This document shows, piece after piece, positions 2,233 to 42,371 of a DNA stretch of 42,371 nt (positions within the stretch are counted from its first letter, which is position 1; the number at the start of each line of letters is the position of its first letter). This DNA comes from a virus. Position numbers and translations under genes: made by a program. The notes under the pieces are model-generated. The model did not search any database. It saw nothing but the letters and a program-made list of their open reading frames with translations, and was not told where the DNA came from. The stretch spans positions 1 through 42,371 of IMG/VR virus record IMGVR_UViG_3300038548_000077; one strand, 5' to 3'.

Positions 2233-3867
2233 TTAATATCCCATCACACCAACTTCGTTAAAGTCATCATAATCATCGTCAAAATCTTCTTCAGATTGTA
2301 ACACATACCCGCCAGCAAAACCTAAAGCCATGTATTGCTCTGCATCTGCTGGATGTGAGTATTTGTTTTTATCAGGTTTATCTTTGTATCTAGCCTCACC
2401 TGACATTTGAACTCGCTTGTATTGATATCCGCCTATCTTGCCCTTTCTAATCATAGGGCATTTACGACTAACTAGGTATCCAGGTTCACCATCGACTAAT
2501 TTAATAATATAAGAGTTTACTGCATCTATTCGTTTAGTAGGGTCATTGGTTGGAGCTGGTTCAGTTTCAAAACCTAGATTAAGAGGTTGGATAATATCAC
2601 CGTCTTCATTATCTTCTATGTAATCATCGTTAAGAATACCCATAGCGCTTTTAGCTTCTGCTTCACCTCTACCTTTGCCTGCAGGATCAATGTAACTAAA
2701 TGCTATTTCTATACCGTAAAAGTTTCTTTGTAAGAATGGCTTAACAATATCTCTTGCAAATTGCCTAACACCCATATCTTCACTGGTTAGCTCAGCGATA
2801 ACTCTTAACTGACCTCGTTTAGTTTGTTGGCCTATAATGCATGAAGGAGTTAACCCACCATCCCAACCCAAGCCAATTGGTAAGTCTTCGATGACACCTA
2901 AAGCTTTTTCAGGGCAATGTATTCTATCGTTATATTGTGGGTAGACAGGCTTACCATCTTTAATCGTGCCGTAGTTACCCATAACCATTACGTTAATATG
3001 GTCTTCAGTATTACCGGCTAACATATCGCGATAGTATTTAAACCCTCCAGGTAAAAACTTAATGTTTTCAGCTTTAGGGTTATCTATGTATTTATCACCT
3101 TGCTTTGTGAATGGAGATACACCGCGAAAGAAGTCGAATATTTCTGATACTGCGCGTTTAGCTTCTTTGGTTTGGTTAGATCGTAAACATCCATCTTCAG
3201 CTAGTTGATACCACCAATGGTCATCTTCTGGTGGGTTGGTATCCATTAGTAAGGATTTACGAGTACAAGGTTTAAGTTTTGGTGTGCCATCAGCGTTTAA
3301 TACAATGTCACCATTTGAATCTAGTTCTTTTGGTGCATCATAGGTTAGTTTACCATTGCTATCATAAACATCTTCATATCCGTCAATAACAGAAGGATAG
3401 CGACCTATTCTTTCACGTGATCCTTTAACTACCGCATAAGGTAATTCTTTAGACTCATTCATAAATACGCCAGTAACCTCTAATGATAGTAGTTTTTTAA
3501 CATCATCAGGTCTATCTAGTGCTAGGAATATAAACTTAGCCTCTACTCTTGTTCCATCTGATAAAGGATAGCTTAAATCACCGCGCATAGGTTTTAACGT
3601 GATTGAACAGACGTCTTGAGGTATCCATTGCTTGAACGTTGCTAGCGTTGTGGTTTCTAGCATATCGTAAGTATTACGAACAACAGCCCACTTAGTTTTT
3701 CTTATACCATCACAGTTAGGCTCTTGTAATACTGATATCCTGTGCATTTCATTTATGCAACACACTGACTTACCGTTACCTACTGGACCTAAAAAGCCCC
3801 TGACAACTTTGTCAGAGGCGTGAAATCTTGCACCGGTTGGTGATGCTATGTAGTTAATTGTTGGCAT
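2233..3867 (-). CDS. terL: Terminase large subunit (TerL)
   Basis: This is the 544-aa ATPase-nuclease that drives headful DNA packaging. Walker A is GPVGNGKS at residues 27-34. Walker B is VTGVFMNE at 131-138, ending in the catalytic Glu. In the C-terminal RNase H-like nuclease half, candidate metal-binding acids lie in GWDGG, SYIDPAGKG and SHPADAEQY. It lies between the small terminase and the portal, as in P22/Sf6. A leftward promoter is proposed in the 161-bp gap upstream (3978-4005), giving roughly a 100-nt leader. The assignment is secure; the packaging strategy (pac, headful) is inferred from the family. Confidence 0.95.
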   Translation of the reverse strand: MPTINYIASPTGARFHASDKVVRGFLGPVGNGKSVCCINEMHRISVLQEPNCDGIRKTKWAVVRNTYDMLETTTLATFKQWIPQDVCSITLKPMRGDLSYPLSDGTRVEAKFIFLALDRPDDVKKLLSLEVTGVFMNESKELPYAVVKGSRERIGRYPSVIDGYEDVYDSNGKLTYDAPKELDSNGDIVLNADGTPKLKPCTRKSLLMDTNPPEDDHWWYQLAEDGCLRSNQTKEAKRAVSEIFDFFRGVSPFTKQGDKYIDNPKAENIKFLPGGFKYYRDMLAGNTEDHINVMVMGNYGTIKDGKPVYPQYNDRIHCPEKALGVIEDLPIGLGWDGGLTPSCIIGQQTKRGQLRVIAELTSEDMGVRQFARDIVKPFLQRNFYGIEIAFSYIDPAGKGRGEAEAKSAMGILNDDYIEDNEDGDIIQPLNLGFETEPAPTNDPTKRIDAVNSYIIKLVDGEPGYLVSRKCPMIRKGKIGGYQYKRVQMSGEARYKDKPDKNKYSHPADAEQYMALGFAGGYVLQSEEDFDDDYDDFNEVGVMGY

Positions 3868-4028: not shown

Positions 4029-4496
4029 TTAAGTAGCATCTTTCTTACCCCCGAACTGCATGTTAAAAACCACACCTTCGGGCGCAGTTATCTCTTGCTG
4101 TATTTTATCACCATACTTTTTAGGTTTAAGCTTGGATGCTAACCATTTACGGGAATCTATTCTAAGACGTGAGCGCTGGACAGCCTCACCATTAATTCTG
4201 TAACCTTCGCTTTCACCATTATTTTCCATCCAATCATTAGTACAATTATCTGCAATATCAAGGATTTCATCGGTTAAAGCGTCTGCTGATTCTTCTTTAG
4301 CCTTTACGTATTGGTCGTTAAACTCTTCGTTAGTTCTCAACCATTTAAAGACTGTTGCCTTGTTTGGCATAGCGTCTGGTTTACATACTGTACGCATTGA
4401 ATCACCATCTGCTAACTGTGAACATATTCTATCAGCTAATTCTGGTGTGTAATCTGTAGGTCTTCCACCTTTCTTTTTGACCTTTTCTTTAGTCAT
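4029..4496 (-). CDS. terS: Terminase small subunit (TerS), Sf6 gp1-like
   Basis: The 155-aa DNA-recognition subunit of the packaging motor. Near the N-terminus GRPTDYTPELADRIC, then MPNKATVFKWLR (about 43-54), forms the HTH region seen in Sf6 gp1-type small terminases. Further matches are an EEILDIADN-like segment, here DEILDIADN, and RLRIDSRKWLASKLKPKKYGDK near 110-130, which matches the RLRVDTRKW..KYGDK region of that family. The lysine-rich start and acidic middle are also typical. It precedes terL in reading direction, with a 161-bp gap rather than the tight junctions found elsewhere. Confidence 0.88.
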   Translation of the reverse strand: MTKEKVKKKGGRPTDYTPELADRICSQLADGDSMRTVCKPDAMPNKATVFKWLRTNEEFNDQYVKAKEESADALTDEILDIADNCTNDWMENNGESEGYRINGEAVQRSRLRIDSRKWLASKLKPKKYGDKIQQEITAPEGVVFNMQFGGKKDAT

Positions 4497-4706: not shown

Positions 4707-4886
4707 CTATAATTGAAATTCTTGTTGAATATTCCATAACCCTTTAGAGTCAGTAGATACAATCACAAACTCTTGCCTAACCTCTCCGTTAGTCTCTAAC
4801 TGCTGAATAATTACACCGTTAGCCTTAGCCTCTTTTAATACTTCTGCTCGTTTATGGGTTAGGTCGCTGCTTTTATATGTTTTCAT
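4707..4886 (-). CDS. Phd/YefM-like small protein, orphan
   Basis: A 59-aa ORF. Its start overlaps the previous gene's stop (ATGA at 4883-4886) and it ends 8 bp before the zinc-ribbon start. The pattern MKTYKSSDL, then RAEVLKEA, GVIIQQ and a strand ending FVIV follows the beta-alpha-alpha-beta layout of Phd/YefM antitoxin N-terminal domains. The toxin-binding tail is missing and neither neighbour looks like a Doc, Fic or RelE toxin. It may be a DNA-binding regulator or only similar in fold. Confidence 0.5.
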   Translation of the reverse strand: MKTYKSSDLTHKRAEVLKEAKANGVIIQQLETNGEVRQEFVIVSTDSKGLWNIQQEFQL

Positions 4887-5245
4887 TTACAATTCCTATT
4901 CATAAATTCCCATACAGGAAGTAAATCACCGTAATCATTAGTTCCGCACTCTATATCTTTACTGTGTGATTCAACATAATTAATAATAGAGCCCCAAGCC
5001 TCACTTTGTATCTCCATTGGTACACAGCTACCTAGCTCGTTTAGTGGGCTCTCCTTCTTAGTTACTTTGTAATTATTGACTCTATTTATTTCTTGGTAGT
5101 GACCATTACCTAAAAAATCATATTCTTGATTTTGTTTTCGTCCTAGCGAATTAGCAAGATTTCCTCTAACTAAAGTTAACTCTCGATTGATATCAAACCC
5201 TAGCGCATCAATTAAAGCTCTTAATAGTTTATCTGTGTTATTCAT
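4883..5245 (-). CDS. Hypothetical protein, 120 aa
   Basis: Not recognised. The start is helical (LLRALIDALGFD, about 7-18), the middle polar, and the tail (about 80-118) holds two cysteines and WEFMNRNC. It overlaps the upstream gene by 8 bp and the downstream one by 4 bp (ATGA), so all three are probably translationally coupled. Its place just before the terminase genes is its only functional hint. Confidence 0.7.
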   Translation of the reverse strand: MNNTDKLLRALIDALGFDINRELTLVRGNLANSLGRKQNQEYDFLGNGHYQEINRVNNYKVTKKESPLNELGSCVPMEIQSEAWGSIINYVESHSKDIECGTNDYGDLLPVWEFMNRNCK

Positions 5246-5519
5246 CTTTTAACAACCCCATCTCGTTAGCGATATCTTTACAAATAGCATCAACCAAGTT
5301 CCTCTCTTTCGCAAATGCCATAGGTAGATAATTGTTATCGTTAATTTGATACTGAAAAAGTAACTTTTCCTTTATATTATTTATTACTGATTGATTATAC
5401 CTCTCTATACAATCTTTGCTTGCTTGTAATTTAATTGTATTTATTGATTTATCGTCAGACTCAACTTTTACGTTAACTTCTTCGGTATTACTTTTATTGA
5501 AAAATTTAAAATTTAACAT
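5238..5519 (-). CDS. Hypothetical protein, 93 aa
   Basis: Not recognised. Residues 1-10 (LNFKFFNKS) are basic and aromatic. The rest is a polar alpha-rich chain (IERYNQSVINNIKEKL, then NLVDAICKDIANEMG). It is the first gene downstream of the terminator-promoter element at 5552-5586. ATG 5519 follows an AAGG-type ribosome binding site. Confidence 0.7.
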   Translation of the reverse strand: MLNFKFFNKSNTEEVNVKVESDDKSINTIKLQASKDCIERYNQSVINNIKEKLLFQYQINDNNYLPMAFAKERNLVDAICKDIANEMGLLKDE

Positions 5520-5551
5520 AGCCTTTACCTTAATTAAAATTAGTTTTAGTA

Positions 5552-5580
5552 AATATAGTATTAAAAAGGGTATGTGTCAA
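5552..5580 (-). promoter_or_regulatory. Leftward sigma70-type promoter, -35 inside a hairpin loop
   Basis: Minus strand: TTGACA (5580-5575, perfect -35), a 17-bp spacer and TATATT (5557-5552, 5 of 6). The start would fall near 5545, about 25 nt before ATG 5519. The -35 lies in the loop of the hairpin at 5568-5586 and the spacer is that hairpin's T-tract. It would drive the small genes and terS. The same layout recurs at 16575-16609. Confidence 0.6.
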
Positions 5581-5586
5581 ATACCC
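5568..5586 (-). terminator. Leftward intrinsic terminator carrying a -35 box in its loop
   Basis: On the minus strand GGGTAT (5586-5581), loop TTGACAC and ATACCC (5573-5568) form a perfect 6-bp stem followed at once by TTTTTAATA. It lies 27 bp after the stop of the appendage cluster, so it can end that transcript. Its loop holds the -35 of the next promoter. Confidence 0.55.
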
Positions 5587-5612
5587 CTTAGTTTATTTCT
5601 AGGCTTTATAGA

Positions 5613-8113: not shown

Positions 8114-8946
8114 TATTTAACTCCGTATATTGCATATTCATAATCTAAATCAGAGTTATTCGCGTTACCTACTGCTCTGATTGCTAACCTACTTCCTTTA
8201 GCTATATTTATAGGCTTGTACGGTGTAACCATGCCGTGCCCTGTCTCAGTAGCTCCTTGTGTAGCATACGAAAGCTCCATTATAATTTCCTCATTACCTG
8301 CGCTACCCACACCTACGTCATAAGCTAATGCAAGTGTGTTGGCCCAGCTATCCGCTGCTCTGTGTGCACACACTAGAAAGCCGCTATATTCATCTACTGT
8401 AGACGCTATAATCTCCACCCAAGAGCCAAAAACACCTGGAGTAGTAGATCGCGCCACTAGCACCGCGCCAGTGATTGATGTATCGGTTCCTATGTCTACA
8501 ACTTCCGACAATGATGCTGGTTGCTGAAATCCTGAATTAGTTAAGTTTATATGCAAAGGAGCTATAACACTGGCTAGGTCGCTTTGCATTCTTGCAGAAA
8601 TTCTAACCCCTTCAGGTATATTAATGGGAAAGTATGCTGTATCTACATTATGCAGTAAGCTATTGTCGGAGTAATACCATAGATTAGGTATTATAACCTC
8701 TTCACTACCAGCACCACCTATGGCTATGTCAATTAACAATTGTGCAGTTACAGTACCAGATACATTCATTTGTAAAACCACTTCTATACTTGTTGAATTT
8801 GATGTATTGTTAGCAGCAGAAAGAAGCTCTACATAAGCGCCTTTTGTATTTGCTAAGCCACTAGTTAAGTCTGTGCCTTCGACATTAGCGAGAACAAAAC
8901 CCGCTGAAACCTGCTCGGAACCACCATATAAGGGAAAATCAGCCAT
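8113..8946 (-). CDS. Putative virion protein with two tandem copies of one fold, 277 aa
   Basis: Two halves repeat the same motif order. First copy (about 40-120): YVELLSAANN, LLIDIAIGGAGSEEVIIPNL, PINIPEGVRISARM. Second copy (about 176-262): WVEIIASTVDEYSGF, ALAYDVGVGSAGNEEIIMEL, PINIAKGSRLAIRAV. Each copy looks like a jelly-roll-type beta domain of about 130 residues. It is the largest intact duplication in this cluster and a good candidate for an exposed appendage. It overlaps the preceding gene by 8 bp. Confidence 0.7.
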   Translation of the reverse strand: MADFPLYGGSEQVSAGFVLANVEGTDLTSGLANTKGAYVELLSAANNTSNSTSIEVVLQMNVSGTVTAQLLIDIAIGGAGSEEVIIPNLWYYSDNSLLHNVDTAYFPINIPEGVRISARMQSDLASVIAPLHINLTNSGFQQPASLSEVVDIGTDTSITGAVLVARSTTPGVFGSWVEIIASTVDEYSGFLVCAHRAADSWANTLALAYDVGVGSAGNEEIIMELSYATQGATETGHGMVTPYKPINIAKGSRLAIRAVGNANNSDLDYEYAIYGVK

Positions 8947-15699: not shown

Positions 15700-16116
15700 C
15701 TAATGGCCTTGGTATATTTCTTCGGCTCTAGTTTTGATTGATTTATCTATCCACTTTTGAAATCGTTTTATGTATAATGTTGGTAGCTCCATTTCTTGTT
15801 CTGTAGCTGGTAATACTGCCCAGCCTTGTAGTTGTGGTTTTTTATCTCTCCATTGCCTAGTGTCCCAGTAAATCATTTGATGAAGCTTTTTAATATAACC
15901 GTGATGCTCTTTAACAGCCTCAGTGATACATTCAGCGCTATAACCATTCTCTTTAAAGTGATAGGTGCAAGTTGGTCTATCTGCTTTAATAGTGGTCGGT
16001 AAGGGGCATCCAGTGTGACAACAGTTAGGCCATTCACTAGCTCTTGCGATATCTCTGGATTTAGAGCTTTTATTTACTTTTACGCCAGCTACTAACTCGC
16101 TCATTGATTTTTTCAT
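15700..16116 (-). CDS. Zinc-binding partner of the replication protein, 138 aa
   Basis: A cysteine cluster at 32-53 (NCCHTGCPLPTTI, then PTCTYHF) suggests a zinc site; the rest is helical with LPTLYIKRFQKWID (about 111-124). It starts on the last base of the initiator-like gene (TAATG). Phage initiator genes are often followed by a helicase loader or primosome accessory, so that role is possible, but no AAA+ motif is present. Confidence 0.5.
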   Translation of the reverse strand: MKKSMSELVAGVKVNKSSKSRDIARASEWPNCCHTGCPLPTTIKADRPTCTYHFKENGYSAECITEAVKEHHGYIKKLHQMIYWDTRQWRDKKPQLQGWAVLPATEQEMELPTLYIKRFQKWIDKSIKTRAEEIYQGH

Positions 16117-16538
16117 TATTCCTCCCAGAAACTGCCGTTAAGATAAACCGATAAATGTCTTTCAGGGTATCCAGGCTCATGCTTCTTGTCGTGAATATCT
16201 TTAACTAATATCATCGTGAATGATTCTAATACTTTATCTTCCTGTCCTTCTGCCATCTTTTTGAATTTATCGTATGCTTTTTGTTTGCTTCCTTTTTTTC
16301 CTTTGGTATCCCATAAAAATAAAAACTGCTCATCTAGGTTTGAAGGGTATGTTAATTGTTTACGCTTAGATTTTGGCGCTTTGTTGCTTGCTGGTTTATC
16401 TTGCTTGGAACAAAACTGAATTATCATTCTGTCGATTAACTTACCTTGTGGGCTGTCAAACTCTAATACTGCCGAATCTAGTAATTCTCTTGCCGTTTGT
16501 GATATAAACAAACTTATCTTACATTCTCGTTTAGCCAT
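16116..16538 (-). CDS. Putative replication initiator-like protein: RHH domain plus O-type C-terminus
   Basis: 140 aa in two parts. Residues 5-45 (CKISLFISQTARELLDSAVLEF, PQGKLIDRMIIQF) look like a ribbon-helix-helix. A basic linker follows. Residues 66-140 match the C-terminal module of many phage replication proteins: FLFLWDTKGKKGSKQKAYDKFKK, then PERHLSVYLNGSFWEE (usual form F..W..YP.K..K..A...WKK ... WLN..RW). The usual winged-helix origin-binding domain is replaced by RHH. First gene after the promoter-terminator element at 16575-16609. Confidence 0.55.
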   Translation of the reverse strand: MAKRECKISLFISQTARELLDSAVLEFDSPQGKLIDRMIIQFCSKQDKPASNKAPKSKRKQLTYPSNLDEQFLFLWDTKGKKGSKQKAYDKFKKMAEGQEDKVLESFTMILVKDIHDKKHEPGYPERHLSVYLNGSFWEE

Positions 16539-16574: not shown

Positions 16575-16603
16575 ATAGTAGTTTAAAATAAAAGGACGGT
16601 CAA
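16575..16603 (-). promoter_or_regulatory. Leftward sigma70-type promoter, -35 inside a hairpin loop
   Basis: Minus strand TTGACC (16603-16598), 17 bp, TACTAT (16580-16575; 4 of 6). Predicted start near 16568, about 30 nt before the ATG of the replication gene at 16538. As at 5552-5580, the -35 is the loop of a terminator-like hairpin and the spacer is its T-tract. Confidence 0.55.
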
Positions 16604-16609
16604 GTCCTT
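16592..16609 (-). terminator. Leftward intrinsic terminator with a -35 box as loop
   Basis: AAGGAC, loop TTGACC and GTCCTT (minus strand) form a perfect 6-bp stem followed by TTATTTTAAA. It lies just downstream of the 66-aa gene ending at 16633 and could end transcripts from the zinc/HNH block while its loop seeds the next promoter. Confidence 0.5.
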
Positions 16610-16632: not shown

Positions 16633-16833
16633 TTAATGCCCTGTATCTCTCGTTTCAAACTTCTTTAGCGCATCCACTATTAATTGATCTTTATGCCAGT
16701 CTAGTATGTCAATTTGTACACACTCGTCTTTATAGAATAATGGGCCTTGTACGCCCATCCAGTACATATACACTATGCGATTGTCTGATAACTTTAGCTT
16801 GTATATATTTGCAGTGGTGATACTCCAAGACAT
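16633..16833 (-). CDS. Hypothetical protein, 66 aa
   Basis: A beta-rich start (SITTANIYKLKLSDNRIVYMYWMGVQGPLFY) then one helix. ATG 16833 overlaps the stop of the 23-aa ORF (TAATG). Last gene before the 16.6-kb terminator-promoter element. Not recognised. Confidence 0.6.
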   Translation of the reverse strand: MSWSITTANIYKLKLSDNRIVYMYWMGVQGPLFYKDECVQIDILDWHKDQLIVDALKKFETRDTGH

Positions 16834-17149: not shown

Positions 17150-17737
17150 CTATTCTCCTAGTATTTTGTAATTAAGTAGTGCACTTCTAAGTGGCTCTAC
17201 TTGAAGTTGCGCTACTTCTGATATTAAATTGTATTTGAAAGTTTTATATGCTTCGCTGGCTGCTTTAGGTGTGTCGAATAACCCTAAGTACTTCGGCTTT
17301 CCGTTTACGTTGCACTTAACTGTATATTTTTTAGCTTGTTTATCCCAGCAAACGCCTTGGGGTAATTTTCCTCTTGCTGATTTGCAATTAGTCAGTAGTC
17401 CATTAATATACTTAGTGACAAATAAACATGCTTCTGGCGAGTAGATTTTATTACCCTGAATCAATAAATCCTTATCAAGTTGCTTGCCTTGCCAATCTTG
17501 TTTTTCCATCCAAGCCTTGAAATTACTGAACGTCAACCATTCCTTTGATACCGTACAGCCTACGTATGAGGGCTGCTTGACTTGGTAATTGACAGAATAA
17601 CACCTTTTAAGCATATTATGCCATTTGCGATAAAACGGACACATCACCTGCTTACCATTAATTGTTGGGCTTATTATATAATCGGCATCGTTAATTCCAA
17701 CGACATAGATTGTTTTTACTTTAGTTATATCGTTCAT
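17150..17737 (-). CDS. HNH/AP2-type homing-endonuclease-like protein
   Basis: 195 aa. The middle has WHNMLKRCYS, KEWLTFSNFKAWME and LDKDLLIQGNKIYSPEACLFV (about 87-107), the modified HNH core of phage AP2/HNH proteins. Residues 124-165 (LPQGVCWDKQAKKYTV..NGKPKYLGLFDTPKAASEAY) are an AP2-type DNA-binding domain. Such proteins are usually selfish nucleases that spread themselves. The 540-bp gene-free stretch upstream may have arrived with it or be what it targets. It is free-standing, with no split gene evident beside it. Confidence 0.75.
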   Translation of the reverse strand: MNDITKVKTIYVVGINDADYIISPTINGKQVMCPFYRKWHNMLKRCYSVNYQVKQPSYVGCTVSKEWLTFSNFKAWMEKQDWQGKQLDKDLLIQGNKIYSPEACLFVTKYINGLLTNCKSARGKLPQGVCWDKQAKKYTVKCNVNGKPKYLGLFDTPKAASEAYKTFKYNLISEVAQLQVEPLRSALLNYKILGE

Positions 17738-42310: not shown

Positions 42311-42371
42311 TATTCAGCTCCTGTGGCTGTTGTAATTCCCTCAATACCTGCTGGTTTTGAAGTTCTTGGTT
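42245..42371. repeat. Right copy of the 127-bp terminal direct repeat
   Basis: Identical to 1-127; see that entry. Bases 42245-42310 encode the start of the 75-aa gene and 42270-42371 also encode the portal C-terminus. Confidence 0.93.

Follow-up and report, generated by a model that had tools for sequence, protein, structure and literature searches.

A module of about 75 bp, in which a predicted terminator hairpin carries the -35 box of the next promoter in its loop, probably stands at the leading edge of an accessory-gene cassette that phages can exchange. We read its parts from the sequence: stem pairing, the -35 loop, a T-rich 17-bp spacer, a -10 box, a dyad, a ribosome-binding site and a constant cassette gene, fam0. 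The module was analysed in a virus record of 42,371 bases (the window) and in related viral contigs. The window comes from a podovirus-like phage, whose recognised genes include those for terminase, the head-to-tail connector, the coat and DNA ejection.

The hairpin-promoter site in the window

The initial annotation had described, on the minus strand, a perfect stem with a perfect -35 box as its loop and a 5/6 -10 box 17 bp further on, and this description is exact to the base (copy 1 in Table 1). The boxes were scored against the sigma70-type consensus TTGACA/TATAAT. The stem comprises 9 pairs, one of them G-U, and the 24-nt hairpin has a predicted stability of -7.8 kcal/mol.

Table 1. Coordinates of the module, its surrounding genes and the second site in the window.
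Feature	Position	Strand	Basis or remark
Upstream gene fam12, 109 aa	5613..5942	-	ORF; ends 24-26 nt before the stem
Copy 1, whole site: AAGGGGTAT-TTGACAC-ATACCCTTTTTAATAC-TATATT	5589-5552	-	
Copy 1, pieces: GGGTAT; TTGACAC; ATACCC; TTTTTAATAC; TATATT	5586-5581; 5580-5574; 5573-5568; 5567-5558; 5557-5552	-	
Terminator-like hairpin AAGGGGTAT(TTGACAC)ATACCCTTT	5565..5589	-	9-bp stem, covariation
-35 box TTGACA within the hairpin loop	5575..5580	-	6/6 match
Promoter spacer, 17 bp (loop end, 3' arm and terminator T-tract)	5558..5574	-	
-10 box TATATT	5552..5557	-	5/6 match
Dyad TAAAACTAATTTTA over the predicted start (~5545)	5535..5548	-	candidate operator
First cassette gene, 93 aa, variable accessory	5238..5519	-	ORF
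Cassette gene, 120 aa	4883..5245	-	relative behind the module in G002
fam0, 59 aa, MKTYKSSDLTHKRAEV..., constant cassette gene	4707..4886	-	
Terminase small subunit, after the cassette	4029..4496	-	phrog_1482, E 2e-49
Terminase large subunit	2233..3867	-	tblastn to annotated phage TerL proteins
Copy 2: AAGGAC(TTGACC)GTCCTT TTATTTTAAAC TACTAT	16575..16609	-	sequence

The upstream protein fam12, taken for an appendage protein in the initial annotation, had no Pfam or PHROGs match that would bear this out or contradict it, and has relatives in L002, L004, L006, L007, L012 and L013, while the 93-aa protein of the first cassette gene had no relatives in viral contigs. The promoter had been annotated as leading the terminase transcript; the terminase genes do follow, but a small accessory cassette (5519 to ~4530) comes first. 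Elsewhere in the window, the same hairpin (CAGCTCCTGTGGCTG) with the same flank stands at both ends (71-85 and 42315-42329), an end repeat that points to a genome which is complete or circularly permuted. The protein encoded at 17150-17737 (minus strand) matches an AP2 domain weakly (E 6e-4, short of the Pfam cutoff) and possibly derives from a mobile endonuclease.

A family of modules in viral contigs

Terminase relatives of the window led to the syntenic contig L013 and to G002. L013 reads GGGGCAT(TTGACAC)ATGCCTT followed by TATATT, a compensated change from T-A to C-G compared to the window. G002 has the same design (TAAAGGGC(TTGCAACT)GCCCTTTA...TATATT), but after the portal gene. A downstream element, TATATT-NN-TAAAACTNNTTTTA, is common to the three, and scanning viral contigs for this element plus TTG gave further members. 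The scan for the downstream element alone, blind to the -35 box and the hairpin, returned 11 contigs, and in all 11 the hairpin is present, the -35 box is TTGACA or TTTACA and the spacing is 17 bp. Searching with fam0 alone gave 33 loci, and a hairpin with a TTGACA-like loop was present in 25 of the 25 that had enough upstream sequence (the remaining 8 have at most 725 bases of it). A hairpin-only scan added members, to a total of 30 distinct modules, which are not 30 independent events because several members are closely related. A search of related phages for the design had been proposed in the initial annotation, its absence there counting against the reading, and at least 30 phage contigs carry it.

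Genome contigs scanned for the module gave five matches, all without the hairpin and judged to be chance, and no host genome was found. BLAST of the module against isolate phages returned a single partial match of 43 bases in an unannotated record, and Rfam had no match in the window. At the syntenic junction of a close relative (G001, contig L002, ~8745-8800), a stronger terminator (GGAGTC-AGAA-GACTCC-TTTTTT) precedes TATATT; the -35 box in the loop is lost there and fam0 is absent. The module-bearing genome G025 has a second hairpin-promoter-like site (L183:18852, minus strand), GCCCG(TTTTAAT..)CGGG TTTTTATTTG then TATAAT, with -35-like bases in the loop.

The module lies closely after the stop codon of the upstream gene, and the next start codon is about 55-65 nt on in most members. 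The upstream gene encodes a small uncharacterised protein in the window and in G008, and a portal of the window's type in G002; in most others it is a P22-like portal gene (PF16510) or a small gene after it. A homolog of the window's large terminase was undetected in 13 of the first 16 members, and although some of these 13 contigs are short fragments, those of them that do show a terminase have a different one. The head-gene backbones around the module are unrelated, some having the window's type of terminase and others a P22-like portal. Unrelated phages share homology only from about -20 to +50; the genes on either side differ, and those between the module and fam0 vary. Two contigs, L235 and L236, have cassette-less sites in which the hairpin is kept, TATATT and the dyad are absent and a scaffold-like gene comes next. 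Among isolates, the relatives of the portal and terminase come mostly from phages that infect proteobacteria, for example Vibrio, Shewanella, Salmonella and Cronobacter, so a TTGACA/TATAAT promoter would be expected to be read.

Conservation of the stem, the loop and the spacing

Two-sided changes were found in all nine stem pairs among 25 gap-free sequences, in which 87.6% of the stem cells pair compared to 70.8% after shuffling. The pair counts leave out G002 and G032, whose loop is 8 nt long, and also L227, L228 and L234, which use another register. Stem covariation was 0.513 versus 0.187 in shuffled alignments, none of 500 shuffles reached the observed value, and sliding the stem partner destroyed the signal. 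The most conserved part of the module is TTGACA (1.4-2.0 bits per base, 26 sequences) and the least conserved positions are the arms adjoining the loop. Loop variants (TTTACA, TTGTAA, TTGCAA) remain -35-like, the 17-bp spacing is retained in nearly all members, and TATATT is present in all of the first 16. The -10 box is weaker in L207, L212, L213, L218, L220, L227, L231 and L234 (3/6 in L218 and L220, 4/6 in several others).

All 30 modules have a G+C-bearing stem with a T-tract at once after it, as in intrinsic terminators, although the stem of L218 has only two G-C pairs. The hairpins are predicted to be modestly stable (about -7 to -14 kcal/mol), and the T-tracts are interrupted. Arms that vary while pairing is kept are the signature of a terminator; a protein operator would conserve its arms. 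The conserved loop, spacing and -10 box are the signature of a promoter, and the two occur together. The earlier proposal that the same bases stop one transcript and start the next is thus strongly supported by conservation, as far as sequence can speak for activity.

A chance test and the second site

Copy 2 (-35 box 5/6, -10 box 4/6, spacer 17 bp) had been cited as a second site of the same design that makes chance less likely. We used a fixed definition: a -35 box of at least 5/6 at the loop, a stem of at least 6 bp with at least three G-C pairs, a T-rich tail and a -10 box of at least 4/6 at 16-18 bp. Exactly two minus-strand sites in the window match it, one at 5580 and the other at 16603, and there are no further matches. 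Among 2000 dinucleotide shuffles of the window, 29 had one site and none had two (mean 0.0145), figures that serve as a guide only because the definition was made after the sites were seen. The comparative evidence does not depend on them. In 0.72 Mb of other phage DNA, nine of ten matches to the definition were members of the copy 1 module family.

Both sites are real in the window, but copy 2 may have arisen by chance. It has CCTTTTATTTTA in common with the module family; the dyad is absent and there is no fam0 gene behind it. The proteins encoded on its two sides (16116-16538 and 16633-16833) had no relatives in viral contigs. Copy 2 is likely an analogue or a diverged copy of the module, to judge by its bases.

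The start-site dyad and fam0

The dyad TAAAA-CTAA-TTTTA, where present, occurs once per genome, solely at the module. Its arms covary in the same register (TGAAA/TTTCA in L231, ACTGA/TCAGT in L238), and the common form has no RNA fold (0 kcal/mol), which makes a DNA operator more likely. The start-site dyad is a probable operator, and a better candidate for this role than the palindrome at the -35 box.

The fam0 protein (MKTYKSSDLTHKRAEVLKEAK...) has 50-80 aa, with the first 42 residues strongly conserved and a variable C-terminus, and is found in more than 30 related contigs from uncultured phages. It is encoded behind every module on a long enough contig, except in the cassette-less L235 and L236 and in L237 and L238, which carry type II. 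No fam0 was found in isolate phage records. By sequence it looks like a DNA-binding antitoxin of the Phd type, although the best phd_fam match, from the distant G004 variant, is not significant (E 0.071). The AlphaFold2 model is alpha-beta-beta-alpha (pTM 0.39), and comparison with the PDB by fold and by profile gave no significant match.

In L237 and L238, which represent two different backbones, fam0 is replaced by a second type (MKxFNASDLSKKPSQVFAAAR) and the dyad arms are changed too (CTGA-CTAA-TCAG versus AAAA-CTAA-TTTT). The dyad forms TAAAACTAATTTTA and ACTGACTAATCAGT thus stand beside fam0 types I and II. This joint change suggests that fam0 binds the dyad, and the two contigs may represent a swap of regulator-operator specificity. 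Against such a match, the change may be a single event, and L212 is an exception, with type I fam0 and a different dyad.

Alternative explanations

Chance juxtaposition in AT-rich DNA has a negligible probability for copy 1. Promoter-like matches as a class are no commoner in the window than in shuffles, but the blind scan for the downstream element, the fam0 scan, the shuffle test and the stem covariation all speak against chance, and the conservation of copy 1 refutes it; the hairpin and promoter are not side by side by accident. Palindromes over -35 boxes are often operators, and the initial annotation had suggested that this one may be such a site. A palindrome that serves as repressor-binding DNA in place of a terminator is nevertheless very unlikely. 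Many members do have a perfect dyad around the -35 box, but the arms change freely and with compensation on both sides, even beside a near-identical fam0 (GGGTAT in the window versus GGCAT in G028), and a T-rich tract on the same strand always follows the palindrome just past the gene end. We therefore rejected the stem as an operator.

A terminator only, with the TTGACA loop kept for another reason such as a protein that binds the RNA loop, is very unlikely. The poor -10 box in some members would fit it, as would L235 and L236, which keep the hairpin and the loop with a -10 box that is weak or absent. It does not explain why the first 16 members all keep TATATT at the 17-bp spacing, why the loop variants resemble -35 boxes or why a gene starts 55-65 nt on in most members. 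That the conserved block is mainly a recombination or insertion site for cassette exchange, with transcription secondary, is highly improbable. The confinement of homology to the module between differing flanking genes, the presence of at least two insertion sites and the RecT-like annealing protein encoded by the window phage agree with it. However, each genome has a single module, which sits at just one edge of the cassette. Its conserved bases have the look of promoter elements, none of the cassette genes was recognised as encoding a recombinase, and shuffling may be a by-product.

Proposed mechanism

In the composite terminator-promoter that we favour, polymerase coming from the upstream structural gene would end at the T-tract (~5567-5560), and host sigma70 polymerase would restart near 5545 with the loop bases as its -35 box. 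The dyad would be a repressor site, possibly for fam0. The cassette would be expressed as its own insulated unit inside the structural operon, and the common module would supply homologous sequence through which phages could exchange cassettes. With hairpins of modest predicted stability, termination may be incomplete. A terminating polymerase must cover the T-tract because the T-tract sits inside the promoter, which it might either occlude or feed. The modest stability, the interrupted T-tracts, the poor -10 boxes of some members and the loss of the -35 box in G001 count against this reading.

A further idea, which we consider unlikely, is that the fusion is a mechanism and more than a saving of space: the polymerase terminated at the T-tract, its footprint still on the promoter spacer, picks up sigma70 and passes directly to the -35 and -10 boxes, so that upstream transcription feeds the promoter until fam0 fills the dyad. 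We know of no natural conserved site built for reinitiation after termination. Both retention of RNA polymerase after termination and its reinitiation are known from cells as well as in vitro (PMC6978322, PMC6978380).

Conservation in about 30 phage contigs points to simultaneous selection on one stretch of DNA, for its hairpin in RNA and for its promoter box in DNA. With the module, reinitiation after termination and the occlusion of a promoter by a terminating polymerase could be studied at a natural site. Synthetic biology could use it as a ready-made insulated part, and it could serve as a search key for accessory genes of uncultured phages.

Comparison with known systems

We found no phage terminator with a -35 box in its loop in the literature, which is weak evidence given its limited coverage. 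Overlap of a promoter with a terminator loop has a precedent in Assolrna of the Clostridium sol operon (PMC9402939); that is a single chromosomal case, antisense, neither a tandem stop-and-restart nor mobile. In the haloarchaeal virus HGTV-1 (PMC3950731), a repeated motif of promoter box and inverted repeat stands ahead of variable genes, but the box is of the archaeal TATA type, the motif precedes many ORFs and no terminator loop bearing a -35 box is described.

Phage morons are inserted among core genes and bring a promoter and terminator of their own. The moron segment of SPP1 (ORFs 8-10) interrupts late genes and is bracketed by transcription signals (PMC6316719). Likewise, the cassette consists of small accessory genes between packaging or portal genes and capsid genes, and is absent at the same site in L235 and L236. 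By contrast, the module's terminator precedes the genes and is fused with the predicted promoter where the cassette begins, and it is the module that is conserved while the genes vary.

The closest likeness is to the promoter-early stem-loops (PeSLs) of T4-type phages (Arbiol et al. 2010 and Comeau et al. 2014, as cited in PMC4503421 and PMC3950731), which, in the accounts given by these citing papers, combine a terminator stem-loop with a sigma70-like promoter, border small variable genes and are thought to mediate gene shuffling. Sequence and covariation indicate the same pairing of stem-loop terminator and sigma70-like promoter in one cassette, and sequence is shared at the junctions of exchanged genes (homology only from -20 to +50, with differing neighbours). 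The module differs in occurring once per genome, as marked by the dyad, in podovirus-like and P22-portal phages, and not in many copies within the hyperplastic regions of a T4-type phage. Its geometry is also tighter, with the loop as the -35 box and the T-tract as the spacer. In 100 kb of RB49 DNA, no terminator with a -35 box in its loop was found: those upstream of consensus promoters stop 16-32 nt short of the -35 box, and two further hairpins lie over or after the -10 box. An invented PeSL-like probe gave no match and was not used. In RB49 (AY343333), near 115033, 117409 and 121736 (minus strand), the 17-bp spacer of early promoters is a perfect hairpin (TTGACAGGGGATCGGTGATCCCCTATAATG and the like) with no T-tract. 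The module appears to work like a PeSL, and we do not class it as one; it would take mobile promoter-terminator cassettes of a PeSL-like kind beyond T4-type phages, into small phages of the podovirus-like and P22-portal types.
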